From assembly GCF_003075095.1 (NCBI RefSeq), contig NZ_QCZF01000006.1, forward strand, positions 101,881-165,880: a DNA stretch of 64,000 bases, read 5' to 3'. Position 1 is the first letter of the stretch; each line of letters opens with the position of its first letter. Both the position numbers and the translations under genes were made by a program. This DNA is from Blastococcus litoris. GTDB taxonomy: Bacteria > Actinomycetota > Actinomycetes > Mycobacteriales > Geodermatophilaceae. Of the stretch, positions 15,281 through 57,605 are shown one piece after another. The notes below the pieces were generated by a model. The model was not told the DNA's origin and made no database searches. It saw only the letters and a list, made by a program, of their open reading frames with translations.

Positions 15281-15294
15281 GTTCCACGTGGAAC
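15281..15294. other. parS-like site 1 (ParB-binding palindrome)
   Basis: GTTCCACGTGGAAC is a perfect 14-bp palindrome that differs from the classical parS core GTTTCACGTGAAAC only by a symmetrical T/A to C/G change. It lies 2 bp past the subtilase stop. Three more identical copies are in the window. Parallel origin-proximal clusters of such sites load ParB for chromosome segregation. Confidence 0.85.
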
Positions 15295-15296
15295 GG

Positions 15297-16766
15297 CTAC
15301 TCGGTCAGCCGGGCCACCGCCGCGACCACGTCGACGAGGCCGGTGCCCTTGTCGTACGAGGTCGGGTAGCCGTCGACGGACTGGTAGGCCGCGCCGTCCG
15401 TGAACCGGTGGGTGGTGCCCTTCAGCGCCGCCTCGACCTCGGCCGGGGTGGCCGTCGGGTCGGCCTGGAAGAGCTGGGCCACGATGCCGGCGATGTGCGG
15501 CGCCGCCATCGACGTCCCGCTGATGGTGTTGAACGTGCCGACGTCGAGGAGGCCGGGACCGTTGCGCGGGTCGAGACCGGTCGAGCAGATCGGCAGGTAG
15601 AGCCGGCAGGAGGACGTGATGTTCTCGCCCGGCGCCGAGAGGTCGGGCCAGGTGGAGGGGTCGGTCGCCGCGCCGCGCGAAGAGAACTCGCTGACGACGC
15701 CGTCGCGCGTGCCGGTGTCCTGGTCGTAGTACGACGCCACCGAGAGGATGCCGCCGGTCGGGTCCTGGCCGGGCGGGTTCGTCAGCGACGCGGAGCCGTC
15801 GCCGCCGTCGTTGCCGGCCGCCCAGACGGTGACGACCCCGTCCTCGACGAGGGCCCGCTGCAGCTTCACCGTCGCGGAGTTCGGGTCGAACTCGCCACCG
15901 CCGCTCGGTCCGTAGGAGTTGTTGGTGACCTTGATCGGCGGGCAGGTGGCGGCGGGGACGCCCGCACCGCAGGGCGCCTCGTGGTTCTCCAGCACCCAGT
16001 TGAGCGCGGAGTCCGCGCCGACGATCAGCAGGACGGCGCCGGTCGAGATGGAGACGATGCTGGCGCCGGGCGCGGCACCCTGCAGCTGACCGCCGTCGGC
16101 GAGGGTGGTCGGCCGGCCGGCGACGATGCCGCTCACGTGCGTGCCGTGCCCGCCGCCGGAGATGGTGTCGGTGTCGAGCACGCCCGGCACGCGGAGCACG
16201 CAGTCGGTGCCCGTGTCGGACTCGACGAGGCACACGCTCTTGAGGTTGGCGACGACGGCGCTGCTGCCGTCGTCGTTCCGGAAGTACGGGTGCGTGGGGT
16301 CGACACCGGAGTCGATGACCGCCACCGAGACCCCGCTGCCGTCCAGCGCCTGGCCGTTCGCGCCGGTCAGCGTCTGCACCGCCTCGGCCCCGCGCGTGGC
16401 GGCGTTGGAGGTCTCCTGGCTGAACTCGATCGGGGTGTTGCCCTCGAGGTAGGTGACGCCGGGCTCGCCGCGGGTCGCCTCGATCTGCTCCGCGGTGCCC
16501 GACGCCACCACGACGCCGATCCGCTCGAACTCGGTGACCGTCCGGAGCCCGGCCGACGCCACGGCGGCCCGTGCCGCGTCGATGTCGGTGCCGTGCACCA
16601 GCACGGTCGCCTGCGCCGCGCCGGTCAGCCCGTCGAGCTGCTCGGCGAGGAAGTCCTGCACGGGAGCCAGCGGTCCGGGCGCCGCCTGGGCGGGTGTGGC
16701 GAGGACCGCCGCCGTCAGGGCGGACAGACCTCCCACGGCGAGAGCTCGACGCAACGACCGGTTCAT
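15297..16766 (-). CDS. Secreted S8 subtilisin-like serine peptidase
   Basis: A 489-residue secreted protease. ATG 16766 follows GAGGAG and gives a Sec signal peptide with RR near the N-terminus and a likely AQA-A cleavage near residue 29. An inhibitor-like propeptide extends to about 115, then the catalytic domain with Asp152 (VAVIDSGVD), His207 (GHGTHVSG), oxyanion Asn319 (AAGNDGG) and Ser419 (GTSMAAP). Cysteines near 179/189, 266/275 and 387/394 could form disulfides outside the cell. There is no sorting signal or C-terminal anchor, so the enzyme should be released. It lies upstream of asnO but is separated from it by a hairpin, so it is probably not part of the NAGGN operon. Confidence 0.94.
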   Translation of the reverse strand: MNRSLRRALAVGGLSALTAAVLATPAQAAPGPLAPVQDFLAEQLDGLTGAAQATVLVHGTDIDAARAAVASAGLRTVTEFERIGVVVASGTAEQIEATRGEPGVTYLEGNTPIEFSQETSNAATRGAEAVQTLTGANGQALDGSGVSVAVIDSGVDPTHPYFRNDDGSSAVVANLKSVCLVESDTGTDCVLRVPGVLDTDTISGGGHGTHVSGIVAGRPTTLADGGQLQGAAPGASIVSISTGAVLLIVGADSALNWVLENHEAPCGAGVPAATCPPIKVTNNSYGPSGGGEFDPNSATVKLQRALVEDGVVTVWAAGNDGGDGSASLTNPPGQDPTGGILSVASYYDQDTGTRDGVVSEFSSRGAATDPSTWPDLSAPGENITSSCRLYLPICSTGLDPRNGPGLLDVGTFNTISGTSMAAPHIAGIVAQLFQADPTATPAEVEAALKGTTHRFTDGAAYQSVDGYPTSYDKGTGLVDVVAAVARLTE

Positions 16767-16887
16767 GGGCACTCCTCGCGGGTCCACGGCGATGTGTGCG
16801 CTGTCTCAACGAGGGCGGGGCGCCGGGGTTACTGCCCGGTAGGCCTGGGTCCGGTTGCCCGAGTCGCGGACCGGGCAGGAGCAGGCC

Positions 16888-17880
16888 ATGCGCACACGGA
16901 GACTCGGCGAGCTGACCGTCCCGGCAGAGGGGCTCGGCTGCATGGGGATGAGCGAGTTCTACGGGACGGCGGACCAGGCGGAGGCGGAGCGGACCATCCA
17001 CCGCGCGCTGGACCTCGGCGTCACCTTCCTCGACACCGCGGACATGTACGGCCCGTTCACCAACGAGCGGCTCGTCGGCCAGGCGATCGCCGGCCGCCGC
17101 GACGAGGTGGTGCTGGCGACCAAGTTCGGCAACGAGCGGGGCGAGGACGGCTCCTACCGCGGCGTCAACGGCCGGCCCGACTACGTCAGGACGGCCTGCG
17201 ACGCCTCGCTGCAGCGGCTCGGCGTCGACGTCATCGACCTCTACTACCAGCACCGCGTGGACACGACCGTGCCCGTGGAGGACACGTGGGGTGCCCTCGC
17301 CGAGCTCGTGGCCGCCGGGAAGATCCGGCACGCCGGAATCTCCGAGGCCAGCCCGGAGACGATCCGCCGGGCGCACGCGGTGCAGCCGGTCACGGCGGTG
17401 CAGACGGAGTACTCGCTGTGGACGCGCGACCCCGAGGAGAACGGCGTGCTCGCGACCTGCGCCGAGCTGGGGATCGGGTTCGTGTCCTACTCACCGATCG
17501 GCCGGGGCTTCCTGTCGGGGGAGATCCGCAGCGTCGACGACCTGGCCTCCGACGACTTCCGCCGGCACAACCCGCGCTTCCAGGGCGAGGCTTTCGAGCA
17601 GAACCTGCGGCTCGTCGACCGGGTGCGCGAGATCGCGGACGAGAAGGGCGTCACCGCGAGCCAGCTGGCGCTGGCGTGGGTGATGGCGCAGAGCGACCGC
17701 CCGGGCAGTCCGGACGTGGTCCCGATCCCCGGCACGAAGCGCGTGGCCTACCTCGAGGAGAACGCGGCGGCCGCCGACATCGAGCTGACCGCGGACGAGC
17801 TCGCCCGGATCGACCAGGCCGCCCCGGTCGGTGCGGCGCAGGGAGACCGCTACCCGGACATGTCCACCGTCCACCGCTGA
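16888..17880 (+). CDS. Aldo/keto reductase
   Basis: A 330-residue NADPH-dependent oxidoreductase of the AKR superfamily. The catalytic tetrad is visible as Asp49 and Tyr54 (DTADMYG), Lys79 (LATKFG) and His122 (YYQHRVD). The C-terminal [16 protein letters not shown] matches the cofactor-binding end of the AKR13-like group, which act on assorted aldehydes and ketones. The start is ATG 16888 with AGGAG 6 nt before it; an earlier in-frame ATG has no ribosome site. It is divergent from the subtilase across 121 bp. The physiological substrate is unknown. Confidence 0.93.
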
Positions 17881-17962
17881 GGGGACCTCGCTGCGGCCGG
17901 GGCGGGCGACCGCGAGAGGATGGGCCGGTGCTGACCGGCCCCTCCGCCCCGGACCTCCGCCG

Positions 17963-18328
17963 GTGACGCCGTTCCTGGTCGGCACGATCACCGTGGTGGC
18001 GGCGGCGATGACCCTGCTCGGACTGCTCTCCACGCTGGCCCACCGGCGCATCGGCCTGGTGCACCTGGCGGCCGCCGGGGTCCTGGAGGCGCTGCTGCTG
18101 GTGCAGGCGGTCATCGCGGCGGCGGCCCTGCTCGGCGGTGAGCGGCCGGAGGAGACCGCGACCTTCCTGGGCTACCTGCTCGGCGTCGTCCTGGTGCCGG
18201 TCGCCGGGGTGCTGTGGGCGCGGACCGAGCGCACGCGGTGGGCCGGCACCGTCCTCGCCGTGGCCGGCGCCGTCGTCGGCGTCATGGTCTGGCGGCTGCT
18301 GCAGCTCTGGGAGGCCACCGGTGCGTGA
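17963..18328 (+). CDS. Small four-helix membrane protein, unknown function
   Basis: A 121-residue protein with four predicted membrane helices and short loops; I do not recognise the family. The GTG at 17963 is chosen because the protein then begins directly at the first helix (TPFLVGTITVVAAAM); no clear ribosome site supports it. Its stop overlaps the start of the next membrane protein by 8 bp, so the two are coupled and may form a complex. A charged RTERTRW segment lies between helices 3 and 4. Confidence 0.75.
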   Translation: MTPFLVGTITVVAAAMTLLGLLSTLAHRRIGLVHLAAAGVLEALLLVQAVIAAAALLGGERPEETATFLGYLLGVVLVPVAGVLWARTERTRWAGTVLAVAGAVVGVMVWRLLQLWEATGA

Positions 18329-18791
18329 GGAGAGGGCGCTGGGAGCGCCCGCGGAGGAGGGCACGTCCGGTCCCGGCCGGGTGCTCGTGGCCGTGTACGG
18401 CACCTTCGCGCTCGCCGCGGGCGCCCGAGCGGGGGTGCAGCTGGCCACCCGGTTCTCCGAGGCGCCGGTCGCCTACCTGCTGTCGGCGTTCGCCGCTGTC
18501 GTCTACGTCGTCGCCACCGTCGGCCTGGCCCGCGGGCCGCGGGGACGGCGCCTGGCGCTGGCCGCGATCACCGTGGAGCTGGTCGGCGTCCTCGTCGTGG
18601 GGACGCTCTCCCTCGCGGACCGCGCCGCGTTCCCCGACGAGACGGTCTGGTCGGCGTACGGGCGCGGCTACTACTTCGTGCCGCTGGTGCTGCCGGTGCT
18701 GGGGCTGCTCCTGCTGCGCCGGAACCGGGCTCAGAAGTCCCCGCCGCCGAAGTCGCCACCGCCGAAGTCCCCGCCCCCGACGTCGCCGTAG
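18321..18791 (+). CDS. Small membrane protein with Pro-rich tail, unknown function
   Basis: A 156-residue protein with four hydrophobic segments (VLVAVYGTFALAAGA, VAYLLSAFAAVVYVVATV, LALAAITVELVGVLVVGTL, FVPLVLPVLGLLLL) and then a tail of SPPPK repeats. The GTG at 18321 overlaps the upstream gene. The last 61 bp are antisense to the 3' end of the gene at 18731-19375, and the SPPPK repeats are the reverse reading of that gene's GGGDF repeats. The tail may be neutral sequence accepted because the neighbour needs it. No family recognised. Confidence 0.75.
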   Translation: MREERALGAPAEEGTSGPGRVLVAVYGTFALAAGARAGVQLATRFSEAPVAYLLSAFAAVVYVVATVGLARGPRGRRLALAAITVELVGVLVVGTLSLADRAAFPDETVWSAYGRGYYFVPLVLPVLGLLLLRRNRAQKSPPPKSPPPKSPPPTSP

Positions 18792-19375
18792 TCCCCGCCG
18801 TTGTCGGCGCCGTAACCGCCGGCGCCGTCCTCGTACCCCTGGGCGTAGGCCTCCTCGTCGCCGCCGCCGAAGAGGCCGCCGTCACCGATGCCGGTGTCGA
18901 AGAGCGCGTCGGCCACCGCGGTGCCGATCACCAGGCCGCCGATCGTGCCGAGCAGGCTGCCGCCGATCATGCCGCCCATGCCCATGCCGCCGCCGTAGCC
19001 GTACCCGCCGCGGCCGTACGGCTGCTCGCCGTAGCCCGGGCCGTAGCCGCCCAGCGCGCGTTCCCGCGTCCCCGGCCGGCGCATCTCGGCCCTGGTGGCG
19101 ACCCGGGCGAGAGTCCCGGGATCGTCGGTCCGCGGCCGCTCGCCGACCGGCACCGCCGCGGCGAGCTGCGCGAGCACCTGCTGCCGCTGGTCGGTGGTCA
19201 GCTGCGCGAAGGCCTCGGCGTGCGCCTGCTCGATCTGCTCCGGGGGAGCGGTGCGCAGCAGGTACCGGTAGCGCGCGATGGCCTGGTCGTCGGGCAGCTG
19301 CTCCCGCCGTCCCTGCGGCCGGGGGTGCTGCTCCTGGTGCGGACGACGGCCGAAGAGCCGGTCGAGCAGTCCCAT
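18731..19375 (-). CDS. Gly-rich protein with GGGDF repeats, unknown function
   Basis: A 214-residue protein. It begins MGLLDRLFGRRP, continues with a charged helical part to about 105 (PEQIEQAHAEAFAQL, TTDQRQQVLAQLAAAV), then a Gly/Tyr-rich linker, a hydrophobic Gly-rich segment (MIGGSLLGTIGGLVIGTAVA, about 138-157), and an acidic C-terminus ending in three GGGDF repeats. The layout suggests an amphipathic or membrane-associated protein. The family is not recognised. The 3' end overlaps the convergent membrane gene by 61 bp. It is divergent from the LOV phosphatase gene. Confidence 0.8.
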   Translation of the reverse strand: MGLLDRLFGRRPHQEQHPRPQGRREQLPDDQAIARYRYLLRTAPPEQIEQAHAEAFAQLTTDQRQQVLAQLAAAVPVGERPRTDDPGTLARVATRAEMRRPGTRERALGGYGPGYGEQPYGRGGYGYGGGMGMGGMIGGSLLGTIGGLVIGTAVADALFDTGIGDGGLFGGGDEEAYAQGYEDGAGGYGADNGGDYGDVGGGDFGGGDFGGGDF

Positions 19376-19530
19376 GGCGCTTCCTCTCGGCGGAACCGCG
19401 GGGCGCGGTGCCCACCCCCGGTGACGAACGGCTGGGTTGGGGCGTTCCCCGTGCGTTCCCCGGCCACACCCGTCCGGTGTACGTCCTGGTCAGAGGGGGT
19501 CGGCGGCGTGAAACGATCGGTGGCACACGG

Positions 19531-19536
19531 TTAAAT
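19531..19536 (+). promoter_or_regulatory. Possible -10 element for a leaderless LOV-phosphatase transcript
   Basis: TTAAAT is one of very few AT-rich hexamers in this region. It ends 6 bp before the GTG at 19543, so transcription would begin at or next to the start codon. No ribosome site is present, which fits a leaderless mRNA. Inference only. Confidence 0.4.
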
Positions 19537-19542
19537 GGCTGT

Positions 19543-21843
19543 GTGCCCTCCGAGCGCGACCGTCCCGGGTCGACCCCCGCCTCCGACGCCGGCCTGGGCC
19601 AGCAGGCGGGCATCGTCACCGCCGCGAGCGCCGCGGTCGCCGGCCGGGACGGCCACACCGGTGAGGCCTCCCTGCCCGGGGTGCTCGCCGACGTGCCGGT
19701 CGCCGTCCTGGTCATCGACCGGCTGAGCAGCTCCGTCGTCTACGCCAACACGGCCGCCGTCGAGCTCGCCGGCAACGTGCACCTGCCGGTGGACGTGGAC
19801 ACCTGGGGCGCCTCGGCCGGGCTGACCGATGTCTCCGGAGAACCGCTGGCGAGCTCCAGCGGCCCGCTGTCGACGGTCGCGCAGGGCCGGCCGGTGACCG
19901 GCGAGGCGGTGCGCCTGGCCCCCGGGACCAGCACGGAGCCGGGCCGGGCGGACGCCGCGGACGACGGCGGGCGCGACGACCAGCTGCTCTGGGTGACCGG
20001 TTTCCCGCTGTCGCAGATCGGCAGCGAGGAGCAGCTCTCCCTCGTCGTGTTCCTCCACCTGGACCCGCCGGACAAGGTCGAGGACCCCGAGGGCTATCTG
20101 CAGGCGCTGCGCGAGCGGGCGGTCATCGCCACCGACATCACCTTCACGATCACCGACCCCCGCCAGGCGGACAACCCGCTGGTCTGGGTGAACCCGTCGT
20201 TCACCCGGGTCACCGGGTACGAGGCGGAGGAGGCCATCGGCCGCAACTGCCGCTTCCTCCAGGGCCCGGCCACCGACCGGGCCGCCGTGGCGGAGATCCG
20301 GGAGGGCCTGGCGGCGCAGCGGACCGTGACCACGACGCTGCTCAACTACCGCAAGGACGGGACCGCGTTCTGGAACCAGCTGTCGGTCAGCCCGGTGTTC
20401 GACGGCGACGGCGAGCTGGTCAGCTTCGTCGGCGTGCAGACCGACGTCACCGAGCGCGTCCGCGTGGAGCGCGAGCGGGAGGCCGCGTTCGCGGCCGAGC
20501 AGACCGCACGCCAGGAGGCGGAGCTGGCCCGCGCGGTCGCCGAGCAGGCGCGCGGCGACGCCGAGCAGGCCCAGGAGGCCGCGGAGCGGGCGCAGGGGCG
20601 GCTGGCGCTGATGGCCGAGGCGACGAGCGCGCTCATCGCGACCCTCGACATGGACGAGCTGCTGGACCTGCTCGCCGGCCTGTGCGCCCCCGCCCTCGCC
20701 GACTGGGTGTTCGTCACCCTCCTCGACGACCACGGGCAGATGAGCCGGTGGGCCGCCCGGCACCGCGACGGGCGGGGGGAGGAGCTCGACGAGTTCGCGT
20801 CGCTGCACGTGATGCACCTCGGCTCGGGGTCGCCCAGCCTGCGCAGCATGGCCACCGCCCGCCCCGTGCTGCTCGACCAGCTCGACGACGGCACGCTCCG
20901 GCGGGTGTTCACCCATCCCGGCGCGCTGGAGGCCTTCCAGCAGCTGGGCGGGCAGCAGGTGCTGACCGTCCCGATGATCGCCCGACGCCGCACCCTCGGG
21001 GCGATCGCGCTCGTCCGCGCGCCGGGCAACCTGCCCTTCTCCCAGGACGACGTCGACCTGGCGGCGGACCTCGGCGGTCGCGCGGCGCTGGCCATCGACA
21101 ACGTGCGGCTCTACCAGCGCGAGCACGCCGTCGCCGACACGCTCCAGCGCTCGCTGCTGCCGGTGCTGGGGGAGATCCCCGGCATCGAGTCGGCCGCGCA
21201 CTACGTCAGCGCGTCCCAGGCGGCGGACGTCGGCGGTGACTTCTACGACCTGCTGGCCCTGCCCGACGAGTCGGTCGCCATCGTGGTGGGCGACGTGGTC
21301 GGGCACGACGTGGCGGCCGCCGCCGCGATGGGCCACCTCCGCGGTGTGCTGCGGGCCAGCATCTGGGAGGCCGAGGACGCCGACCCCGAGGTCGTGCTGG
21401 GCCGGGTGGACCGGCTGGTCCAGGGCCTGCGCGTGGCGCCCATGGCGACCATGGTCTACGCCCGCGCGCTGCGGCCCGATGCGCCCGGCCGGCCGTGGCG
21501 GCTGCACGTGGCCAACGCCGGGCACCCGCCGATGCTGCTGCGCACCCCCGACGGCTCGGTGCGGGTGCTGGCGGAGGTGACCGGGATGCTCGTGGGCGTC
21601 GACGCCACGACCCAGCGCACGACCGTCTCCCTCGAGGTCCCGCCCGGCTCGACGCTGCTGGCCTACACCGACGGGCTGATCGAGCGGCCCGGTGCGGACA
21701 TGGACGAGGGCATCAGCGAGCTGTGCGGCCGGATCGCCGCGGCGCCGGCCGGCGCAGGTCCCCGAGAGCTCTGCGACGCGGCGGTCAGCGGGGCCCTCGA
21801 CCACCGCGACGACGTGGCGCTGATCGCCGTCCGCTTCGGCTGA
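19543..21843 (+). CDS. LOV-GAF-PP2C blue-light-regulated phosphatase
   Basis: A 766-residue cytoplasmic sensor phosphatase. Residues about 45-170 form a degenerate PAS-like domain. Residues 188-305 are a canonical LOV domain: GRNCRFLQG with the flavin-adduct Cys236, NYRKDG with Asn268, FWNQL with Asn278, and FVGVQTDVTE with Gln299, all the FMN contacts. An Ala/Glu-rich coiled coil (about 305-355) leads to a GAF domain (about 353-525) and a SpoIIE/RsbU-type PP2C phosphatase (about 555-766) with metal residues in VGGDFYD and VGDVVGHD, then ANAGHPP and YTDGLIE. Such enzymes usually dephosphorylate an anti-anti-sigma protein, so light may set a stress sigma factor; no such partner is nearby. The GTG at 19543 has no ribosome site. 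Confidence 0.93.
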   Translation: MPSERDRPGSTPASDAGLGQQAGIVTAASAAVAGRDGHTGEASLPGVLADVPVAVLVIDRLSSSVVYANTAAVELAGNVHLPVDVDTWGASAGLTDVSGEPLASSSGPLSTVAQGRPVTGEAVRLAPGTSTEPGRADAADDGGRDDQLLWVTGFPLSQIGSEEQLSLVVFLHLDPPDKVEDPEGYLQALRERAVIATDITFTITDPRQADNPLVWVNPSFTRVTGYEAEEAIGRNCRFLQGPATDRAAVAEIREGLAAQRTVTTTLLNYRKDGTAFWNQLSVSPVFDGDGELVSFVGVQTDVTERVRVEREREAAFAAEQTARQEAELARAVAEQARGDAEQAQEAAERAQGRLALMAEATSALIATLDMDELLDLLAGLCAPALADWVFVTLLDDHGQMSRWAARHRDGRGEELDEFASLHVMHLGSGSPSLRSMATARPVLLDQLDDGTLRRVFTHPGALEAFQQLGGQQVLTVPMIARRRTLGAIALVRAPGNLPFSQDDVDLAADLGGRAALAIDNVRLYQREHAVADTLQRSLLPVLGEIPGIESAAHYVSASQAADVGGDFYDLLALPDESVAIVVGDVVGHDVAAAAAMGHLRGVLRASIWEAEDADPEVVLGRVDRLVQGLRVAPMATMVYARALRPDAPGRPWRLHVANAGHPPMLLRTPDGSVRVLAEVTGMLVGVDATTQRTTVSLEVPPGSTLLAYTDGLIERPGADMDEGISELCGRIAAAPAGAGPRELCDAAVSGALDHRDDVALIAVRFG

Positions 21844-21862
21844 CCGGGGACCGGGAGCGGGC

Positions 21863-31274: not shown

Positions 31275-32987
31275 ATGCCCGGACGACGACGGCGTTCCAG
31301 CACGACCGCCCGCAGGACCGCGACGACGCGCACCACCACGCCGGTGCGCTCGACGAAGCCCGCGCCCGAGAAGCCGGTCGCCGGGCCGGGTGAGCGGGTG
31401 TGGGTGCTGGCCGTGCCCTTCCGCGCCCCCGCGCCCGGGGCCGTCTGGCACCGCGACCTCCAGGCGCACGTCTGGGTCGGCCGCGAGCTGCCCCCGGAGC
31501 TGGCGTCCTACGACCCGCCGCCGTACACGTTCGAGCGCTTCCTCGAGGACGAGCTGAACGAGAAGCCGCGGCCGATCCCGCTGGCCCGGCCGATGACCCC
31601 GCGCGAGCAGCAGTGCGACGGCGCCGACGTGGTCGCCGCGCACGCCGCGGCCGGCGGCCGGGTGTTCCTGCTCGGCGACGACCCCGGCGTCGGCAAGACC
31701 GGGACGGCGATCCTCGCGGTCAAGGCGATCGCCGAGCAGCGGGAGGTGTCCACCGTGCTGGTCGTCGCCGACCGCCCCGCGGCCATCACCATCCCGCACT
31801 GGACCCGGTCCATCGCCGGCTTCGGCGACGGCGGCATCCGCTGGTGCGTGACCACGTGGGACCGCCTGGCCAAGGTCTCGAAGCTCCGGTTCGACGTCGT
31901 CGTCGCCGACGAGGCGCACATGGTGCGGCACACGACGACGCAGCGGTGGAAGCACTGGAAGGCCGTCTCCGGTGCCGGCCGGGTGAAGGACGCGCCCTAC
32001 GTGCTCGCCACGACGGCCACCCCCGCGCACACCCCGCTCGAGCTGCCCTACCTCGCGCCGGAGTTCGCCGCACGGCACGGCGAGGGCGTCCGGGAGTGGG
32101 CCGACCTGCCGAAGCGGCTCGAGGCGCACGGGTTCCACGTGGAACGTGGCCGCTACGGCTGGCAGTGGACCGAGGACGCCGACGAGCGCCGCACCGACCT
32201 CGCGCGGCTCCAGTCCTGGCTGGCCGACGTCGACCCGCCGGCGACGCTGCACCGGCCCGCACCCTGGGGCCCGGTGTCGGTCACCGGCACGCCCGTCGCG
32301 CTCACGCCCGCCGAGCGCGCCGCCTACGAGTCCGAGTGGTCGGAGTTCCGCGCCGAGATGCAGCTGGCCCGGCGCGCCCGGCAGAGCGCGCGCGGCCGAG
32401 CGGCGCTGCTGCGCTTCCGCCAGAAGGCCGGGCTCATCCGCGTGCAGGCCACCGTCGACTGGATCCGCGCCCAGGTCGAGGCCGAGCGGCAGGTCGCGGT
32501 GTCGGTCGAGTTCGTCGAGACCGCGGCCGACCCGATCCGCGACGCGCTGCTGGACGCAGGGATCCCGGTGGCAGGGATCTACGGACGCGACCGGTTCGAC
32601 GTGGAGGCGGAGCGGCTGCGGTTCCAGCGGGGCGAGGCGATGGTGTGCGTGTTCACCGTGACCGCGTCCATCTCGCTGCACGCCGGGGAGACCCTCCCGG
32701 ACGGGCGCCCGGCGTCGGGCACCCCGCGCGTCGGGCTGTTCCACCAGCCGCGGTTCTCCGGCATCCAGGCCCGCCAGGTGACCGGCCGCACGCACCGCGA
32801 CGGGAAGGTGTCGCCGTGGCGGATCGCCTTCGCCGAGGACACCGTCGAGGAGCAGGTCGCCCGGGTGATGGTGGAGCGGCTCGCGGTCAGCGGCTCCGCG
32901 GCCGGCGCCGACACCTCGTCCCTGCAGGAGATCGCCGAGCTCCTCGACGCCGACTGGCTGCCGGCCACCGCGCTCACCGAGGACTGA
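31275..32987 (+). CDS. SF2 helicase, phage-style SNF2-like
   Basis: A 570-residue ATPase. ATG 31275 follows GGGGGAG. After a basic Thr/Arg-rich N-terminus comes [23 protein letters not shown], then Walker [13 protein letters not shown] with Lys141, the DEAH box at 212-215, motif III LATTATP and motif [12 protein letters not shown]. This makes a complete SF2 core of the SNF2 type. Its N-terminal module resembles helicases carried by actinobacteriophages (an impression from memory, not from a search), yet no other phage gene is here. A parS-like palindrome lies inside the reading frame and encodes GFHVER near residue 288. The 3' end overlaps the convergent gene by 14 bp. Confidence 0.88.
32132..32145. 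other. parS-like site 2, inside the helicase gene
   Basis: GTTCCACGTGGAAC, identical to the other three copies, is embedded in coding sequence where it specifies FHVE. It is the only copy not next to a hairpin. Confidence 0.8.
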
Positions 32988-47343: not shown

Positions 47344-47763
47344 TCACTGCTCCGCGATCCCGCTGGGCTCCGACCGCCAGGTCAGGTGGTCCAGCCGCCG
47401 GCCGACCACGGCGCCGACCGGCAGCTGCGCGATCTGCGCCAGGTCCTCCAGCGTCGCCGCGACCACCTCCTGGAACTCCGTCCCCCCGATCACGTCCGGA
47501 CCGATCCCGGCGGAGACGTGGTAACCCTCGACGGCCATGCGGACGTCGTCCGGCGAGACGTCGAGGTCGCGCACCAGGGCCGTCGTGGTCGCCCGCATCG
47601 AGCTCATCCCGGAGAAGGCCCGACCGCAGCCGCAGCCGCCGTCGGGGTCGGCCTCGTCCTCCGGGCAGACGTAGCCGAGCAGGACCAGCTCGCCCTCGAT
47701 CGCGAAGCAGAAGTCGCCCTCCCGGGCTCCCTGGGTGTCGTGCGTCGCGGTCAGCAGCTTCAT
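47344..47763 (-). CDS. Conserved small protein with Cys pair, unknown function
   Basis: A 139-residue soluble protein starting MKLLTATHDTQGAREGDFCF. The segment YVCPEDEADPDGGCGCGRAFSGM has four Cys residues that could bind a metal. The second half is helical, with DVSPDDVRMAVEGYHVSAG. I recall similar small actinobacterial proteins but cannot name a function. ATG 47763 has a weak ribosome site, and a parS-like site lies 40 bp upstream. Confidence 0.8.
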   Translation of the reverse strand: MKLLTATHDTQGAREGDFCFAIEGELVLLGYVCPEDEADPDGGCGCGRAFSGMSSMRATTTALVRDLDVSPDDVRMAVEGYHVSAGIGPDVIGGTEFQEVVAATLEDLAQIAQLPVGAVVGRRLDHLTWRSEPSGIAEQ

Positions 47764-47802: not shown

Positions 47803-47816
47803 GTTCCACGTGGAAC
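47803..47816. other. parS-like site 3
   Basis: GTTCCACGTGGAAC, identical to the other copies, lies in an intergenic region 3 bp from the hairpin at 47820-47852. Confidence 0.85.
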
Positions 47817-49775: not shown

Positions 49776-49879
49776 GGGGTCTCCAATGACTCGGTGGACC
49801 CTCTTCCTAGCTCAGCGTGACGTGGGTCTCACCACCGGGTCCTTCCAGCCGGAAGTTCTCTCGCCGCCGCCGGGGGCCG

Positions 49880-49913
49880 GAGAGGCCCGGGACCTCGTGG
49901 TCCCGGACCTCTC
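49880..49913 (-). terminator. Terminator hairpin after dnaB and its trailing small ORF
   Basis: A 15-bp stem with one mismatch and loop TCGT lies 5 bp past the stop of the small ORF at 49918 and 165 bp past the dnaB stop. Confidence 0.75.
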
Positions 49914-49917
49914 GCGG

Positions 49918-50076: not shown

Positions 50077-50077
50077 G

Positions 50078-51463
50078 TCAGTTCGCCATGTCCACGAAGC
50101 GGCTGTAGTGGCCCTGGAAGGCGACCGTGACGTTCGCGGTCGGGCCGTTGCGGTGCTTGACCAGCATGATGTCGGCCTCGCCCGCCCGCGGGCTCTCCTT
50201 CTCGTACATGTCCTCGCGGTGGATCATCATGACCATGTCGGCGTCCTGCTCGATCGAGCCGGACTCGCGGAGGTCGGACAGCATCGGCTTCTTGTCCTGA
50301 CGCTGCTCGGAGCCACGGTTGAGCTGCGACATGGCGATGACCGGCACCTCGAGCTCCTTGGCCAGCAGCTTGAGCGCACGGGAGAACTCCGAGACCTCCT
50401 GCTGGCGGCTCTCCACGCGCTTGCCGGACGTCATGAGCTGCAGGTAGTCGATGACCACGAGCTTGAGGTCGTTGCGCTGCTTGAGCCGCCGCGCCTTGGC
50501 CCGGATCTCCATCATCGTCATGTTCGGGGAGTCGTCGATGTAGAGGGGTGCGTCCGCGATCTCGCCCATCCGCCGGGCGAGCTTCGACCAGTCCTCGTCG
50601 CTCAGCGTTCCCGCGCGCATGTGGTGCAGCGGCACCTTGGCCTCCGCCGACAGCAGACGCATGGTGATCTCGTGCTTGCTCATCTCCAGCGAGAAGATGG
50701 CGGCCGGCAGGTGGTGCTTCACCGACGCCGACCGCGCGATGTCCAGGCCGAGCGTCGACTTGCCCACACCGGGACGGGCGGCGATGACGACCATCTGGCC
50801 GGCCTGCAGGCCGTTGGTGAGCTCGTCGAGGTCCCGGATGCCGGTCGGGACCCCGCGGCTGACCCCGCCGCGGCTGGCGATGGCGTCCAGCTCGTCCATC
50901 GTCGGCTGCAGGATGTCCTCGAGGCGCGAGTAGTCCTCGCTCATCCGCTTCTCGGTGACGTCGTAGATCTCCTGCTGCGCCCGGTCGACGATGTCGTCGA
51001 CGTCGCCCTTGCCGCCGGCCGCGCCGTAGCCGAGCTGGACCACCCGGGTGCCCGCCTCGACGAGCCGCCGCAGCACGGCCTGCTCCGCGACGATCGCGGC
51101 GTAGTACCCCGCGTTGGCCGCCGTGGGCGTCGAGGCGATCAGCGTGTGCAGGTAGACCGCGCCGCCCATCTTGGACAGCTGGTCGGTGCGGTTGAGCTCG
51201 GCCGCGACGGTGATCGCGTCGGCCGGCTCGCCGCGGCCGTACAGGTCGAGGATGCAGTCGAAGATGATCTGGTGCGCGGGCCGGTAGAAGTCGGGGCCCT
51301 GCAGCGCCTCGACGACGTCGGCGATCGCGTCCTTGCTGAGCAGCATGCCGCCGAGCACCGACTGCTCGGCGGGGATGTCCTGCGGCGGCTGCCGGTCGTA
51401 GGCCGGCGCCGTCGCTGAGGGCCGGCTGAGTTCGTCGGCCACCGCCACGCTGGGTTCCTCCAT
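50078..51463 (-). CDS. dnaB: Replicative DNA helicase
   Basis: A 461-residue hexameric helicase that unwinds DNA ahead of the replication fork and recruits primase. The N-terminal DnaB domain (about 27-130) is followed by a linker and the RecA-like ATPase with Walker A ARPGVGKST at 229-237, Walker B LVVIDYLQLM and the arginine-finger region near SDLRESGSIEQDADMV. There is no intein at the Walker A site, a frequent insertion point in actinobacteria. ATG 51463 is chosen; GTG 51448 is an alternative. The promoter region upstream contains DnaA-box-like sites and a hairpin. Confidence 0.97.
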   Translation of the reverse strand: MEEPSVAVADELSRPSATAPAYDRQPPQDIPAEQSVLGGMLLSKDAIADVVEALQGPDFYRPAHQIIFDCILDLYGRGEPADAITVAAELNRTDQLSKMGGAVYLHTLIASTPTAANAGYYAAIVAEQAVLRRLVEAGTRVVQLGYGAAGGKGDVDDIVDRAQQEIYDVTEKRMSEDYSRLEDILQPTMDELDAIASRGGVSRGVPTGIRDLDELTNGLQAGQMVVIAARPGVGKSTLGLDIARSASVKHHLPAAIFSLEMSKHEITMRLLSAEAKVPLHHMRAGTLSDEDWSKLARRMGEIADAPLYIDDSPNMTMMEIRAKARRLKQRNDLKLVVIDYLQLMTSGKRVESRQQEVSEFSRALKLLAKELEVPVIAMSQLNRGSEQRQDKKPMLSDLRESGSIEQDADMVMMIHREDMYEKESPRAGEADIMLVKHRNGPTANVTVAFQGHYSRFVDMAN

Positions 51464-51553
51464 CTCGTGCAGGGCGCGCCCGCACCACCACTCCGTGGGG
51501 AAGCCGGAGTTCGACGGGCGCCGCCGGACCGAACATCTGTTCGGTGATTGCTA

Positions 51554-51586
51554 CCGCCGGGCACTGACAGATTCGGTGCCCGGCGG
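51554..51586 (-). terminator. Hairpin upstream of dnaB
   Basis: An 11-bp perfect stem (51554-51564 with 51576-51586) with an 11-nt loop lies 90 bp upstream of dnaB. It could stop read-through from the ribosomal operon or act as leader structure. Confidence 0.5.
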
Positions 51587-51658
51587 CAGCTGGGGAGGAC
51601 GTTATGGAGCGGGAGGGGGCCAGGTCCAACACCCGTGTGCACGTCGATCTGCACAACT

Positions 51659-51794
51659 TGTGGACAAGTCGGTGGATTCACGCCTGTCGACATGTGGAGA
51701 CGTCGGGGGACACGAGGCGGTCATCCCCTGTCCTCCCCCTCGTCACCTGCGCTGACGCCACCCACGGGCTGTGGACGGGAGAAAGTTCTCCACA
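51659..51794. promoter_or_regulatory. Cluster of DnaA-box-like sites upstream of dnaB
   Basis: A perfect actinobacterial DnaA box TTGTCCACA lies on the minus strand at 51659-51667, inside the inverted repeat ACTTGT-GG-ACAAGT. Near matches follow: 51693-51701 (GTCTCCACA on minus, two mismatches), 51770-51778 (CCGTCCACA on minus, two mismatches) and 51786-51794 (TTCTCCACA on plus, one mismatch). A local AT-rich run CATTTTTC adjoins the last. It may let DnaA control dnaB, or titrate DnaA. Confidence 0.5.
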
Positions 51795-52383
51795 TTTTTC
51801 CCCGTCGTGCACCACGTGTCACAGGCGCGCACCACCCGTCGCGGAGCTCGCGCCCACGTCCGTCCACCGTTCCGCCGACTCCCCGGGGTGTTCCCGGCAG
51901 GCCGGCGTCCGGCACGGCTGGATTCCGTCCGTGCCGAGCGGCGGAGCGTTCGTCAGCGGAGCCTGCCTCCTGGCCCTGTCAGCGCTCCTCTCCGGCTGCA
52001 CCGCGACGGTGAGGGGTCCCGCGGCCCGGGACACCGGGGTGGCCCGTCCTACGGGCCGCTCGGGGGAGCTGCGGTACCCGGTGCCTCCGACGACGCGCAG
52101 CCGGTCGGCGTCGTGCTCCGGTCGGCCGGCTGCCCCGGGCTGGGGTGCCGGCCGCGTGCTCGACGTCGCCGCAGAGGCGAGGGAGGAGTGACGGGCTGCC
52201 CCCATGCGCCCCGTCCGGCCGGGACCGCCTCGCGGTCGACGCCTCGCCCATGTGCTCCGACGCCCAGGACGACCGCGTCTCCTCGTCGGTCCCGAGCCAC
52301 GGCTCGGAGCAGGGGGTGGCCGCCGACAGCGCCCTGTTCCACGACCCGCGGGGGCCCTGTGCACGCAGAGGTGCCCCGAGACG

Positions 52384-52423
52384 CCGGAAGGGGCGCCGGA
52401 CCGGAGTCCGACGCCCCTTCCGG
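52384..52423 (-). terminator. Terminator hairpin after rplI
   Basis: A 12-bp outer stem (52384-52395 with 52412-52423) plus a short inner stem lies 18 bp past the rplI stop. It ends the rpsF-ssb-rpsR-rplI operon. Confidence 0.85.
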
Positions 52424-52441
52424 GCGGTGCTGCCAGCCGGC

Positions 52442-52888
52442 TCAGCCGGGGACGACCTCGATCGCCAGCTGGGTCGTGACCTCCGGGTGCACCCGCACGG
52501 TGACGGTGTGCTCGCCCGTGGTCTTGATGCTGCTCGGGAGCTCGATCCGGCGACGGTCGAGCTCCGGGCCGCCGGCAGCGGTGACCGCGGCGGCGACGTC
52601 GGCGGTGGTGACGCGGCCGAACAGGCGGCCACCCTCACCGGCACGGGCCGGGACGCGCACCGTGAGGCCGGACAGCTGCCCGGCCACGGCGGTGGCCTCC
52701 TCGTGCGAGCGCACCTCACGGGTGGCACGCGCCCGGCGGAGCGACTCGACCTGCTTCTCGGCGCCGCGGGTGGCCTTGATGGCCAGGCCGCGAGGCAGCA
52801 GGTAGTTGCGGCCGTACCCGCCCTTGACCTCCACGGTGTCGCCGGAGGAACCGAGGCCGGTGACCTCCTGCGTCAGGATCAGCTTCAT
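52442..52888 (-). CDS. rplI: 50S ribosomal protein L9
   Basis: A 148-residue ribosomal protein binding 23S rRNA at the base of the L1 stalk. The start MKLILTQEVTGLGSSGDTVEVK and GYGRNYLLPRGLAIKAT are the L9 signature; the long connecting helix and a C-terminal domain follow. ATG 52888 gives the usual family start; ATG 52897, three codons upstream, is possible too. It is the last gene of the conserved operon, 11 bp after rpsR. Confidence 0.97.
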   Translation of the reverse strand: MKLILTQEVTGLGSSGDTVEVKGGYGRNYLLPRGLAIKATRGAEKQVESLRRARATREVRSHEEATAVAGQLSGLTVRVPARAGEGGRLFGRVTTADVAAAVTAAGGPELDRRRIELPSSIKTTGEHTVTVRVHPEVTTQLAIEVVPG

Positions 52889-52899
52889 CGTGCTCATGA

Positions 52900-53136
52900 T
52901 CAGCGCGCCGTCGAGGTGTAGGGCAGCAGGGCCATCTCACGGCTGTTCTTGACGGCCGTGGCGACGTCCCGCTGGTGCTGGCTGCAGTTGCCGCTGACGC
53001 GGCGGGCACGGATCTTGCCGCGGTCGGAGATGAACTTCCGCAGCAGCGTCGTGTCCTTGTAGTCGATGTAGGTCGCCTTGTCCTTGCAGAACTGGCAGAC
53101 CTTCTTCTTGACCTTGCGGATGGGGGGCTTGGGCAC
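52900..53136 (-). CDS. rpsR: 30S ribosomal protein S18, zinc-binding form
   Basis: A 78-residue platform protein that pairs with S6. It begins with GTG at 53136. Cys14, Cys17, Cys51 and His54 form the zinc site of the C-plus type; many actinobacteria also keep a zinc-free paralogue for zinc starvation elsewhere. The conserved core is [24 protein letters not shown] in two halves around residues 18-41. It lies 35 bp after ssb. Confidence 0.97.
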
Positions 53137-53171
53137 CGGGTTCTCCAGGTGTGTCGTTCAGGGAGGTGAGA

Positions 53172-53660
53172 TCAGAAGGGCGGTTCGTCGGACGGACCGG
53201 CGGGCGTCGACCACGGGTCGCTCGCACCGCCCCCGCCGCCACCGCCGCCGGAGAAGCCGCCGCCGCCACCACCGAAGCTGCCGCCGCCCTCACCGCGCGA
53301 GGCACGGGTGACCTTCGCGGTGGCGTAGCGGAGCGAGGGGCCGATCTCGTCGACCTCGAGCTCGATGACGGTGCGCTTCTCGCCTTCCTTCGTGTCGAAG
53401 GAACGCTGCTTGAGCCGGCCGCTGACGATGACCCGCGAGCCGCGGGTGAGCGACTCGGCCACGTTCTCCGCGGCCTGCCGCCAGACGTTGCAGCGGAGGA
53501 ACAGCGCCTCGCCGTCCTTCCACTCCTGCGACTGGCGGTCGAAGGTGCGGGGGGTCGACGCAACGGTGAAGTTGGCGACGGCAGCGCCCGACGGCGTGAA
53601 GCGCAGCTCCGGATCGGCGGTCAGGTTGCCGATGACGGTGATGACGGTTTCGCCGGCCAT
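53172..53660 (-). CDS. ssb: Single-stranded DNA-binding protein
   Basis: A 162-residue SSB that coats single-stranded DNA at forks and repair sites. The OB-fold occupies about 3-115, with [19 protein letters not shown] and [19 protein letters not shown] Gly-rich flexible linker (about 122-145) leads to the acidic tip DEPPF that docks replication and repair partners. ATG 53660 is 2 bp past the rpsF stop. It is the ssb copy embedded in the ribosomal operon. Confidence 0.97.
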
Positions 53661-53662
53661 GG

Positions 53663-53950
53663 TCAGTGGACCTCGGGCCGCATCAGCTTCGTGCGCAGCA
53701 CCGACTCGTTCAGGTTGAGCTGGCGGTCCAGCTCGGCGACCGCTGCAGGCTCGGACTCGATCGTGACGATCGCGTAGATGCCCTCGACCTGCTTCTTGAT
53801 CTCGTAGGCCAGGCGACGCCGGCCCCAGATCTCGGTCTTGACGGTGCCACCGGCCTTGGTGACCACGGTCAGGAACCGGTCGAGCGAGGGAGCGATCGTG
53901 CGCTCCTCGAGCTCGGGGTCGAGGATGACCATCAGTTCGTAATTCCGCAC
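53663..53950 (-). CDS. rpsF: 30S ribosomal protein S6
   Basis: A 95-residue ribosomal protein that binds 16S rRNA with S18. It shows the family start [17 protein letters not shown] and [21 protein letters not shown]. The GTG at 53950 is preceded by AGGAGGTGGGG at a spacing of about 11 nt. It is first in the operon; the mRNA leader contains a small hairpin that might take part in S6:S18 feedback. Confidence 0.97.
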
Positions 53951-53979
53951 GGAGAACCCCACCTCCTCTGGACTTGGCG

Positions 53980-53998
53980 GCTGCAGGACATCTGCAGC
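53980..53998 (-). promoter_or_regulatory. Hairpin in the rpsF leader
   Basis: GCTGCAG-N5-CTGCAGC, a 7-bp stem 30 bp upstream of the rpsF start, is followed on the RNA by CGCC. Many bacteria have an S6:S18-binding leader motif here; the match to that motif is only approximate. Confidence 0.35.
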
Positions 53999-54110
53999 AG
54001 GAGGGTCGTGCATGCGTAGCGCGCCCCGGCACGTGCCGAGAGCGCGCAGCACGAGGCTACCAGCGCCTCGGACGGCGCCGTCCTCCGCCGTCCACAGGGC
54101 CCCCCGACGA

Positions 54111-54144
54111 CGCCGGCCGCCGTCCCGTGGGACGGCGGCCGGCG
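54111..54144 (-). terminator. Terminator hairpin after the membrane-anchored secreted protein gene
   Basis: A perfect 15-bp stem with loop CGTG lies 13 bp past the stop at 54157. Confidence 0.85.
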
Positions 54145-54156
54145 GCCGTGCGATGG

Positions 54157-55188
54157 CTAGCGCGAAGCGCGGGATGCCTGGTGGGTGCGGACCAGCGCGG
54201 CGGTCACCGCGGCGAGGGCCACGACCGCGGCCAGGGCCGCAGCCGGCAGTGCCTGCGCCGGCGTGGACTCCGACGCCGCCTCGGTCACGGCGTCGCCCTC
54301 CTCGAGCGCGGCGCCGTCGAGCCCGGCGAGCTGGCCGAAGACCGGGACGGAGGCGCCGTCGTAGCTGCCGGGCACGCCCCCGGCGCCGCCGGCGCCGGCA
54401 CGGTCGGAGCCACCCAGGCTCTGGCCCGGGACGAAGTAGCGCGAGGGGTCGAACGCGGCGGCGGCGACGATGTCCGACGGCGACATGCGCGGGGCCGAGC
54501 CGCCGACGTCGTAGGCGTACGGGTCGCCGGGCGTCGGCGGGATCTGGTTCGTGGGCGCCGTCGGCGCCGGGGCGCCCTCGGGTGCCGGCAGCGGCGCGCC
54601 GGTCCCCGGGGGCGCGGGGACCTGGCCGGTCGGCAGCGGCACGTTCACCTGGGGCAGCGGCGGGAGCCCGACGCTGGGCAGGTTCGGCAGGTTCGGCGCG
54701 ATGGTCTGGACGACGTAGGGGATCGGGGCCGGGAGCGGGGGGAGCGACCCGAGCACGGCGTTGACCACCTGGTTGGCGGAGACGCCCAGCGGCAGCTGCG
54801 CCTGCGGGACGACCCGGTAGGTGTAGGTGATGGTGCCGGGGGTCGCCGGAGCGCTGAACGTCCAGGCCGTGCTCTGCTCGGGGGCCAGCGTGCGCTGCTC
54901 GCCGAAGAAGCTCACCGAGACGTCGGTGTAGACCGTCGCCGAGACGCTGACGATGCCGAGGTTGATCCCGCCCTTGTTCGCGGCCGGGATCTTGTTGACG
55001 AAGGTGATCGTGCCGCCGGCGTCCACGCTCGCCACCGGGGGCGTCAGGTTCCTGATCTCGATCGTGGCCGTGGGGGCTGCGGCGGCGCTGGGGGCCATCA
55101 GCACCGAGAAGGCGGCCACACCTAGCCAGCCGAGGACGGCAGCGGCGATGCCCCGCTGCGCCGTTCGACGGATCCGACCGGTTGCCAT
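54157..55188 (-). CDS. Secreted, C-terminally membrane-anchored Pro-rich protein
   Basis: A 343-residue envelope protein; family not recognised. ATG 55188 follows GGAGGT. A signal peptide (about 1-38, cleavage near SAAAA-P) precedes a beta-rich domain (about 40-130) with [20 protein letters not shown] and [13 protein letters not shown], loosely like a cupredoxin or Ig fold but without copper ligands. A long Pro-rich region (about 140-230) and a low-complexity segment follow, then a C-terminal helix ([17 protein letters not shown]) and a basic tail, the layout of a cell-surface protein held in the membrane. There is no LPXTG motif. A palindrome lies in its promoter region. Confidence 0.8.
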
Positions 55189-55232
55189 GTTCTGCTCTAC
55201 CTCCACTGTGCGCTGCGGAACCACACCCCGCC

Positions 55233-55244
55233 TACTGGCGAGTA
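55233..55244. promoter_or_regulatory. TACT-GGCG-AGTA palindrome in a divergent promoter region
   Basis: A 12-bp inverted repeat lies 45 bp upstream of the secreted protein gene and 85 bp upstream of the endonuclease gene. On the minus strand it reads GTTACTCGCCAGTA. It is a possible operator or promoter element; the regulator is unknown. Confidence 0.35.
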
Positions 55245-55328
55245 ACCCCCGTCACGCTGCATGAACGATGATGTGTGATCGCAGTTACGGCTAAACCTGA
55301 ATTCACCGACGAACTAGGGTCGGCGAGC

Positions 55329-56144
55329 GTGGGCAGACACCCGATCGGCGTACACGTCGGACCAGGCCTGACCGATGACGGCGAGCTCGAGGACGGCGGG
55401 CCGCTGGCCCGGGCGGCGGAGATGGACGCCGACGGCGTGCAGGTGTTCCTCACCGACCCGCAGAGCTACAAGAACCCGAAGCCGCGCCCCGACCAGGCCG
55501 ACCTGCTGGCCTCCGACGTCGTCGTCGTGGTCCACGCGCCGTACATGCTCAACGTGGCGACCACGAACAACCGGATCCGCGTGCCCGGCCGCAAGCTGCT
55601 CGCTGCCCACGCCTCGGCGGCCGCGGCCATCGGCGCCGCGGGCCTGGTCGTGCACGGCGGCCACGTGCTGGCCGAGGACGACCCGGCGGTCGGCGTGGAC
55701 AACTGGCGCAAGACGTTCGCCTATCAGGAGAAGGACGGCGGCTTCCCCCTGCCGCTGCTGATCGAGAACACGGCCGGCGGCGGCAACGCCATGGCGCGCG
55801 ACCTCGACGCGGTCGACCGGCTCTTCGACGCCGTGGGGGACCACGGGGCAGGGTTCGTGCTCGACACCTGCCACGCCTGGGCGGCCGGGTGGGACCTCGC
55901 CACCGTGGTCGACGACGTCCGCGCCCGCACCGGCCGGATCGACCTCGTGCACCTGAACAACAGCCGCGACCCGCACGGCTCGAGCCGCGACCGGCACGCG
56001 CCGCTGGCCGACGGCGAGATCCCGACGGAGCTACTCCTCGAGGTCGCCCGGGCCGCCGACTGCCCGATCGTGCTCGAGACGCCCGGCGACGCCGCGTCGC
56101 ACGCCGCGGAGATCAGCCTGCTGAGGACGGCCCTGGGCGGCTGA
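55329..56144 (+). CDS. nfo: Endonuclease IV-type AP endonuclease
   Basis: A 271-residue TIM-barrel metalloenzyme that cuts DNA 5' to abasic sites in base excision repair. Metal ligands are visible in VHAPYMLN, VVHGGHV, PLLIENTAGGGN, VLDTCHAWAAG, NSRDPHGSSRDRHAPLADGEI and IVLETPG, matching the trinuclear zinc site of the family. I chose GTG 55329, just after AGGGTCGGCGAG; an in-frame extension to 55275 would include promoter-like DNA. The 3' end overlaps a convergent glycosyltransferase gene by 114 bp. Confidence 0.92.
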   Translation: MGRHPIGVHVGPGLTDDGELEDGGPLARAAEMDADGVQVFLTDPQSYKNPKPRPDQADLLASDVVVVVHAPYMLNVATTNNRIRVPGRKLLAAHASAAAAIGAAGLVVHGGHVLAEDDPAVGVDNWRKTFAYQEKDGGFPLPLLIENTAGGGNAMARDLDAVDRLFDAVGDHGAGFVLDTCHAWAAGWDLATVVDDVRARTGRIDLVHLNNSRDPHGSSRDRHAPLADGEIPTELLLEVARAADCPIVLETPGDAASHAAEISLLRTALGG

Positions 56145-57575
56145 GGCAGCGACCAGCCGCCACCCGCGGAGGACGACGCGGTCGCGGGCGTGGTCCAGCG
56201 GGCCGCCCGCGGGGTCGTCGATCCCGAGCCAGCTGGTCCGGACGACGTCGCCGTCGGGGCGCAGGACGTCGCGCACGACCAGGACCATCAGGACGACGAC
56301 GGCCGCGTCCCGCAGCAGGACCCCGAAGAAGAACCACTCGACCTCGATGCCCCGGTTGTCGGTGCCGAGGTAGTGCAGCATCGTCACGACCCACACCAGC
56401 ACCTCCGTCGCCTGCCAGAGCAGGAGGGAGCGCCAGCGCGGGCGGGCCAGGACGGCGAGCGGGAGCAACCACAGCGAGAACTGCGGGCTCCACACCTTGT
56501 TGAGCAGGAGGAAGCCGGCCACCAGCAGGAAGGCCAGCTGGGCCACCCGCGGCCGCACGGGCGCGGCCAGCGCCAGCCAGGCGACGCCGGCCGCGAGTGC
56601 CAGCAGGCAGGCCGTCACCACGGCGTTGAGCACCGTCGGCGTCTCGCCCGCGGCGAGCGGCCCGTCGAGGATCCGCGAGCCGGTGGCGTGCAGGAGCATG
56701 TTCCAGATCGACTCGGGGTTCGCCGGCCGTTGCTGGCTGAAGACGAAGAACCAGGACCAGTTGTCCGGCGCCCGCAGGGCCACCGGCACGTTCACCGCCG
56801 ACCAGGCCACCACGGCGGCGGCCAGGGTGGTGGCCCACTCGCGCAGCCGGCCGGCGCGCAGGCACAGCACGAAGAGGACGCCGAGCAGCAGCAGCGGGTA
56901 GAACTTCGCGGCGATGCCGAGCCCGAGGAGCAGGCCGGCCGGCACCGGCCGGGACCGCGCCCACGCGAACATCGCGAAGGTCGCCAGCGCGACGGCCAGC
57001 AGGTCCCAGTTGGTGAAGGCGTGGACCAGGAGGACCGGGGAGAGGCCGATCATCGCGGCGTCCCAGGGACGGCGGCCGGTGAGCCCGAGGACGGCACGCA
57101 CCAGCAGCAGCGCGCAGGACGACAGCAGCAGGCAGGTCAGCACCGTGAAGGCCTGCACGGGCGGGACGTCGGGCAGCAGGCCCACCCCGGCCGAGGCGTC
57201 GTCGTACAGCTGCGCGCCGGCCGCCGCCAGCGCCATCAGACCGCCGGTGAGCACCGGGTACTCGACGCGGGCGTCCAGGTAGGGGAGCGCGCCGTCGCCG
57301 AGCCCGTAGCCGCCGAAGAGCGGCACCGCGTCGGAGTAGCAGAAGTGCGTGTACTGGCGGGAGCCGCTCCAGTCGCCGGCCGCGCACGGTGCCTGCTTCA
57401 TCCAGGCCAGGGCGAGGACGCAGGTGGCGAACAGCAGGCACACGCGCAGCGGCGTCCAGAACCAGGCGCGGCCGGTGGCCGCGTGCCGCCCCCAGGGCCC
57501 GCCCACCGCCTCGCTGGCCTGCGCCACGACCGGGTCGACCCAGGAGGGCACCACGCGGTCGGGCCGCTCCGGCAT
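56031..57575 (-). CDS. GT87-type polytopic mannosyltransferase-like protein
   Basis: About 514 residues with some ten membrane helices, fitting the GT-C fold of the actinobacterial glycosyltransferase 87 family (PimE-like mannosyltransferases using polyprenyl-phosphate mannose). The first outer loop has DARVEYPVLTGG, a typical position for the catalytic acid of this fold. I prefer ATG 57575, because an alternative GTG at 57659 would force translation through a perfect 16-bp hairpin and a parS-like site. The last 38 codons (from about the GWRLVAASAA segment) are antisense to nfo, so either the stop was lost or the overlap is natural. Confidence 0.85.
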   Translation of the reverse strand: MPERPDRVVPSWVDPVVAQASEAVGGPWGRHAATGRAWFWTPLRVCLLFATCVLALAWMKQAPCAAGDWSGSRQYTHFCYSDAVPLFGGYGLGDGALPYLDARVEYPVLTGGLMALAAAGAQLYDDASAGVGLLPDVPPVQAFTVLTCLLLSSCALLLVRAVLGLTGRRPWDAAMIGLSPVLLVHAFTNWDLLAVALATFAMFAWARSRPVPAGLLLGLGIAAKFYPLLLLGVLFVLCLRAGRLREWATTLAAAVVAWSAVNVPVALRAPDNWSWFFVFSQQRPANPESIWNMLLHATGSRILDGPLAAGETPTVLNAVVTACLLALAAGVAWLALAAPVRPRVAQLAFLLVAGFLLLNKVWSPQFSLWLLPLAVLARPRWRSLLLWQATEVLVWVVTMLHYLGTDNRGIEVEWFFFGVLLRDAAVVVLMVLVVRDVLRPDGDVVRTSWLGIDDPAGGPLDHARDRVVLRGWRLVAASAAQGRPQQADLRGVRRGVAGRLEHDRAVGGPGDLEE

Positions 57576-57591
57576 CCCCGCGTCGCCGGCC

Positions 57592-57605
57592 GTTCCACGT
57601 GGAAC
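57592..57605. other. parS-like site 4
   Basis: GTTCCACGTGGAAC lies between the penicillin-binding protein terminator and the glycosyltransferase start, 3 bp from the hairpin. Confidence 0.85.

Follow-up and report, generated by a model that had tools for sequence, protein, structure and literature searches.

RESULTS

Four exact copies of a palindrome in the window

The window, the whole 64-kb stretch of DNA analysed here, corresponds to G000:C6:101881–165880 of the Blastococcus litoris genome (4.63 Mb; 4,632 kb in 87 contigs), in which contig C6 is 397 kb long. The replicative helicase gene dnaB lies at 50078–51463 on the minus strand (Pfam DnaB_C, 1.7e-107), and an rpsF-ssb-rpsR-rplI cluster occupies 52442–53962 on the same strand; ssb (53172–53660, minus strand) and rpsF (53663–53962, minus strand) were assigned by Pfam, and rpsR and rplI by eye from their translations. 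Gene calls and Pfam thus placed all three of the genes (dnaB, ssb and rpsF) that an earlier note on this DNA had reported in the window. Three adjoining genes of 515–545 amino acids at 1703–7085 (minus strand) look chemoreceptor-like by eye from their N termini. Scanning the window for tRNAs and Rfam families returned zero hits, which carries no weight for the palindrome question.

The palindrome GTTCCACGTGGAAC occurs in the window without mismatch at 15281, 32132, 47803 and 57592, as the earlier note had claimed, and no strand is assigned to any copy. The first copy (15281–15294) was identified by exact 14-mer match and placed by gene calls and Pfam between an asparagine-synthase gene (13412–15196, minus strand) and a subtilase gene (15297–16661, minus strand), 73.3 kb left of the dnaA-dnaN intergene. 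The second (32132–32145) is inside a helicase-like gene (31344–32987, plus strand), 56.5 kb left of the intergene, and is translated there as (G)FHVE(R). The remaining two are intergenic: one (47803–47816) is 40 bp upstream of a DUF7715 gene (47344–47763, minus strand) and 40.8 kb left of the dnaA-dnaN intergene, and the other (57592–57605) is 17 bp upstream of a GT87 glycosyltransferase gene (56031–57575, minus strand) and 31.0 kb left. The copies are 16.9, 15.7 and 9.8 kb apart, in agreement with the spacing given earlier, and the window contains no further match even when up to two mismatches are allowed. Four matches were reached in none of 100 dinucleotide shuffles (mean 0.14, largest 2, up to two mismatches), which upholds the claim that such a set is rare by chance.

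Exact copies are concentrated around parAB and dnaA-dnaN

Genome-wide, GTTCCACGTGGAAC has nine exact copies, all on C6 and within a span of 139 kb, approximately 3% of the genome. They start at C6 117161, 134012, 149683, 159472, 169718, 184334, 197893, 240211 and 256205, that is, at −73.3, −56.5, −40.8, −31.0, −20.8, −6.2, +7.4, +49.7 and +65.7 kb relative to the dnaA-dnaN intergene. The exact 14-mer is absent from the remaining 4.23 Mb outside C6, and the pattern read backwards, used as a control, has 0 copies in the genome. By simple arithmetic, if one exact copy is taken as given, the probability that chance alone puts the other eight into the same 8.6% of the genome is approximately 3e-9. 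Six of the nine copies are intergenic in our own gene calls, and the copy at C6:197893 translates as FHVE, like the one at 32132.

The dnaA-dnaN intergene was used as a proxy for oriC: dnaA ends at C6 190095, dnaN starts near 190.97 kb, and the 885-bp stretch (G+C 0.68) holds one of the two exact DnaA boxes (TT[AG]TCCACA) on C6. At E ≤ 0.001 the genome has a single match to PF02195, encoded by parB (C6 182142–183176); parA adjoins this gene, and both are 6–8 kb from the intergene. A one-mismatch copy, GTTTCACGTGGAAC, is located 31 bp from the −6.2 kb copy, upstream of parA. The earlier note had proposed a genome-wide count of the 14-mer as a check of origin proximity and had named an even spread round the chromosome as refuting its reading; no such spread was seen, and 9/9 exact copies are within the 139 kb around parAB and dnaA-dnaN. 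Its reading of an origin-proximal zone is supported, and four of the nine sites fall in the window, 31–73 kb from the intergene, but the window covers the left part of the array only: its right edge is 24.6 kb short of the intergene, and the pair of sites beside parA falls outside it.

Seven one-mismatch copies were found, likewise all on C6 (exact and one-mismatch copies together, 16/16), at 16311, 67112, 73353, 73911, 184303, 217283 and 273335, and they reach out to −174 kb. Four of the seven are GTTCCACGTGCAAC or its reverse complement. The copy at 67112 recurs in the same gene in G007, and that at 273335 in the same gene in G024. The one-mismatch copies may be weak sites, relics or merely conserved coding sequence.

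The palindrome is identical to published parS sites

GTTCCACGTGGAAC is exactly the 14-bp core of the published parS of Pseudomonas aeruginosa and Myxococcus xanthus. The earlier description of the palindrome as a symmetrical variant of the classical parS therefore stands as far as the parS reading goes, but the form is not an unusual one. In P. aeruginosa (parS, TGTTCCACGTGGAACM), the identical 14-mer is bound by ParB in vivo, as reported from ChIP-seq, at four sites near oriC, and proposed sites with two mismatches are described in the available text as lacking significant in vivo binding (PMC5098823, PMC4368675). In M. xanthus (parS, TGTTCCACGTGGAACG), the consensus is the same 14-mer, and in vitro binding by ParB was reported from gel shifts (PMC3899335).

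ParB was aligned to the Caulobacter protein (6t1f), with residue numbering as in PMC7383237. The B. litoris protein has R173, T179, K184 and G201, and R173 and G201 are described as "absolutely conserved" in ParB orthologues (PMC7383237). With both residues present and parAB near the origin, this is a ParB of the parS-binding type. It also contains GERR and ENIHR stretches, which we take to be the CTP motifs of ParB. On the evidence of sequence and clustering, the four palindromes are almost certainly chromosomal parS (bacterial centromere) sites, belonging to a set of nine exact copies scattered through the 139 kb that includes parAB and dnaA-dnaN. The array is an already known kind of system, a ParABS centromere array.

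Comparison with named systems places it more closely. P. aeruginosa, from a different phylum, has four strong sites, compared with nine exact copies over 139 kb in B. litoris. In M. xanthus, 22 sites are packed into 3 kb close to parA (PMC3899335), whereas in B. litoris two sites stand beside parA, separated by 31 bp and one of them with one mismatch, and the other exact copies are 10–42 kb apart. Streptomyces, Mycobacterium and Corynebacterium share with B. litoris the multiple origin-proximal parS sites and the parAB-dnaA-dnaN neighbourhood, but the sites listed for these genera in a review have GTTT- or GTTN-type half-sites (PMC7022226), and the B. litoris genome has no exact GTTTCACGTGAAAC. 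In 20 streptomycete chromosomes, parS sites are biased to one side of oriC and the bias is conserved; orthologous parS positions are not reported in the accessible text of that study (PMC8743542). In B. litoris, 6/9 exact copies are on the parAB side of the dnaA-dnaN intergene. Our literature search found no work joining parS, ParB and Geodermatophilaceae, and none of the Blastococcus, Modestobacter and Geodermatophilus papers among the matches listed named ParB.

One site form prevails in the family

Among 96 genomes of the family, 92 carry only GTTCCACGTGGAAC, with 4–15 copies each (the variant lineage). The remaining four, one of g5 and three of g6, carry only the classical GTTTCACGTGAAAC, with 1–2 copies in assemblies that are fragmented into 190–520 contigs. 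No family genome carries both exact palindromes (0/96), and the backwards pattern was found in 0/96. G007 (8 copies) and G009 (7 copies) are one-contig genomes, and in each of them every copy is within 100 kb of the contig junction, which is approximately 5 kb from parB. The nearest named ParB relatives, among the best 16 matches listed, come from Blastococcus, Modestobacter, Klenkia and Geodermatophilus, which we take to be Geodermatophilaceae, with 75–88% identity in the best segment.

A sample of the order comprised 199 genomes, 37 of them family members. The variant form was present in 37/37 family members and the classical form in 0/37; outside the family, the classical form was present in 147/162 genomes and the variant form in 43/162, with at most four copies. 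The mixed form GTTTCACGTGGAAC occurs in 118/199 genomes of this sample, and the backwards control gave a single chance match (G127). These distributions suggest that the GTTC/GAAC form replaced the classical GTTT/AAAC form in 92/96 family genomes; the family seems to have switched as a whole. Classical, mixed and variant sites stand side by side near parB in Lentzea and Saccharothrix loci, which indicates a possible path for the swap.

Sites within pcnA and the helicase-like gene are fixed

Two sites lie within coding sequence that could be compared across the family. The pcnA site (C6:169718) is exact in 85/86 variant-lineage genomes, the exception being G046 with one mismatch, and is found in 0/4 classical-site genomes; the count covers 86 of 92 variant-lineage genes (G067, G069, G072, G082, G084 and G086 were left out). 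The codon over the first two bases of the site is GGT (34), AGT (33) or CGT (18), so the amino acid varies and GT is fixed. Codon invariance as such is no rarity in pcnA: of 232 degenerate positions whose amino acid never varies among the 86 genomes, 41 do not vary in codon either.

The helicase site (32132) is exact in 89/90 variant-lineage orthologues, with G091 lacking it; 90 of 92 variant-lineage genomes were counted, leaving out G052 (weak match) and G055 (partial gene). Here, the codon that ends in the first base of the site is GGG, ACG, AGG, CGG or TCG, always with the final G, and encodes Gly (74), Thr (7), Arg (7) or Ser (1). The GAA codon of the site is fixed in 89/89, compared with 93/3092 Glu codons elsewhere in the gene. 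None of the four classical-site genomes gave a match to the helicase-like gene; the match in G052 is weak, and the G022 gene contains an internal stop.

As read from these orthologous sequences, the patterns show that the DNA of both in-gene sites is under constraint. The site is retained while the overlapping codon changes its amino acid, and this supports the parS reading. No P value is attached to the conserved-site counts, because related genomes are not independent.

Alternative explanations for the palindromes

The 14-mer could be the operator of an unrelated regulator that recognizes a CACGTG palindrome and has its targets near the origin by chance. Two of the four window copies, 57592 and 47803, do sit just upstream of genes, but sites deep within pcnA and the helicase gene are retained, 9/9 copies are on the contig that carries parAB and dnaA, and the sequence equals a published parS; we consider an operator very unlikely. 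Codon usage could also make the 14-mer recur by chance, as TTC CAC GTG are likely to be preferred codons at 74% GC, and the copies at 32132 and C6:197893 do translate as FHVE. Such a bias is exceedingly improbable as the source, given that no shuffle reached four copies, that the other 4.23 Mb has no exact copy and that 6/9 exact copies are intergenic. The helicase codons point the same way, with GAA at every copy of the site and at so few of the Glu codons elsewhere in the gene.

The sites could instead serve nucleoid occlusion through Noc, whose family is sister to that of ParB. Noc sites are spread over the chromosome. The Noc-type residues Q173 and R201 are not present in the only PF02195 protein of this genome, which has R and G at these positions, and Noc specificity is reported to require Q173 together with R201 (PMC7383237). 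That the palindromes are Noc sites is therefore extremely improbable, and parS remains the reading that we adopt.

If the palindromes are parS, then, by analogy with known ParABS systems, a ParB dimer would recognize each one through its helix-turn-helix, close there into a CTP-dependent clamp and then slide onto the adjoining DNA. ParA would move the ParB-coated origin region, which would also recruit SMC. The exact copies, 10–42 kb apart, are predicted to seed several ParB domains over approximately 140 kb, not one compact cluster.

Other sites have turned over

Site positions were compared with the origin regions of four relatives (G007, G091, G024 and G065). The pcnA site, the site upstream of parA and the site beside g211/g212 (C6:240211) recur in 4/4. 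The 15281 copy lies beside the same genes in three (G007, G024 and G091; absent from G065), the 32132 copy is present in three (absent from G091), the 57592 copy in two and the 47803 copy in none. For the last of these, 19 DUF7715 loci from 18 genomes contained an exact copy in one, the B. litoris locus itself, and G025 carries a copy with one mismatch in that place; the 47803 copy is apparently recent. The DUF7715 gene is itself patchy, with matches in 18/96 family genomes. An exact copy stands just upstream of the GT87 gene, as at 57592, in 11/30 loci (30 of 96 loci were counted), and in five more of the 30 the exact copy stands in another place, either inside the gene or downstream of it. 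Judged by these positions, the array has not been held unchanged in its entirety but combines long-fixed sites with more recent ones.

The ParB recognition helix and the change of site form

The ten residues compared from the recognition helix of B. litoris ParB are identical in 28/28 other family rows (three of which, L047, L051 and L052, came from short loci that showed no site) and in two classical-site genomes (L123 and L127, both g6); four ParB loci (L100, L103, L105 and L110) gave no row in this alignment. The other classical-site sequences differ at two residues (L121, g6) or one (L117, g5). A serine in the helix marks the family, being present in 28/28 family rows and in the classical-site genomes, with proline in 60/60 rows outside the family; Caulobacter ParB also has serine at this position. 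Just past the helix, residue 184 is K in 28/28 variant-lineage rows and R in 4/4 classical-site genomes. Outside the family, the 60 rows have N (25), K (24), R (10) or S (1), and Amycolatopsis loci with classical sites have K184. Both K and R are described as permissive at this position (PMC7383237). More differences between the two lineages are visible in the alignment upstream and downstream of the helix.

The helix is identical in variant-lineage rows and two of the four classical-site genomes, so no change within the recognition helix tracks the GTTT to GTTC swap, and none was required there. Residue 184 sets the two lineages apart, which speaks against a wholly unchanged ParB, but K184 also occurs with classical sites in Amycolatopsis, and a ParB change that explains the swap is not established.

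We propose tentatively, with slightly less than even confidence, that the whole array was swapped from GTTT/AAAC to GTTC/GAAC within one family while its reader stayed nearly unchanged, and that in this dispersed array a subset of sites is locked at gene positions by selection that outweighs the overlapping amino acid choice. If true, selection on a bacterial centromere would act on where its sites stand and how they are spaced, as well as on how many there are and how near to oriC they lie. The change of site form across the family and the sites held in place within genes merit further work. Centromere turnover can be studied in this family as a natural experiment, with 92 genomes of one site form set against four of the other and ParB recognition helices that are the same or one to two residues apart, and it makes two questions testable: whether flipping a half-site letter needs any ParB change, and whether selection also acts on where a parS site stands. 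At the in-gene sites, selection on centromere DNA can be tested codon by codon.

As a minor observation on the family genomes, parB and pcnA each match twice in G034, with identical scores on two contigs (C6 and C30), perhaps through assembly duplication.
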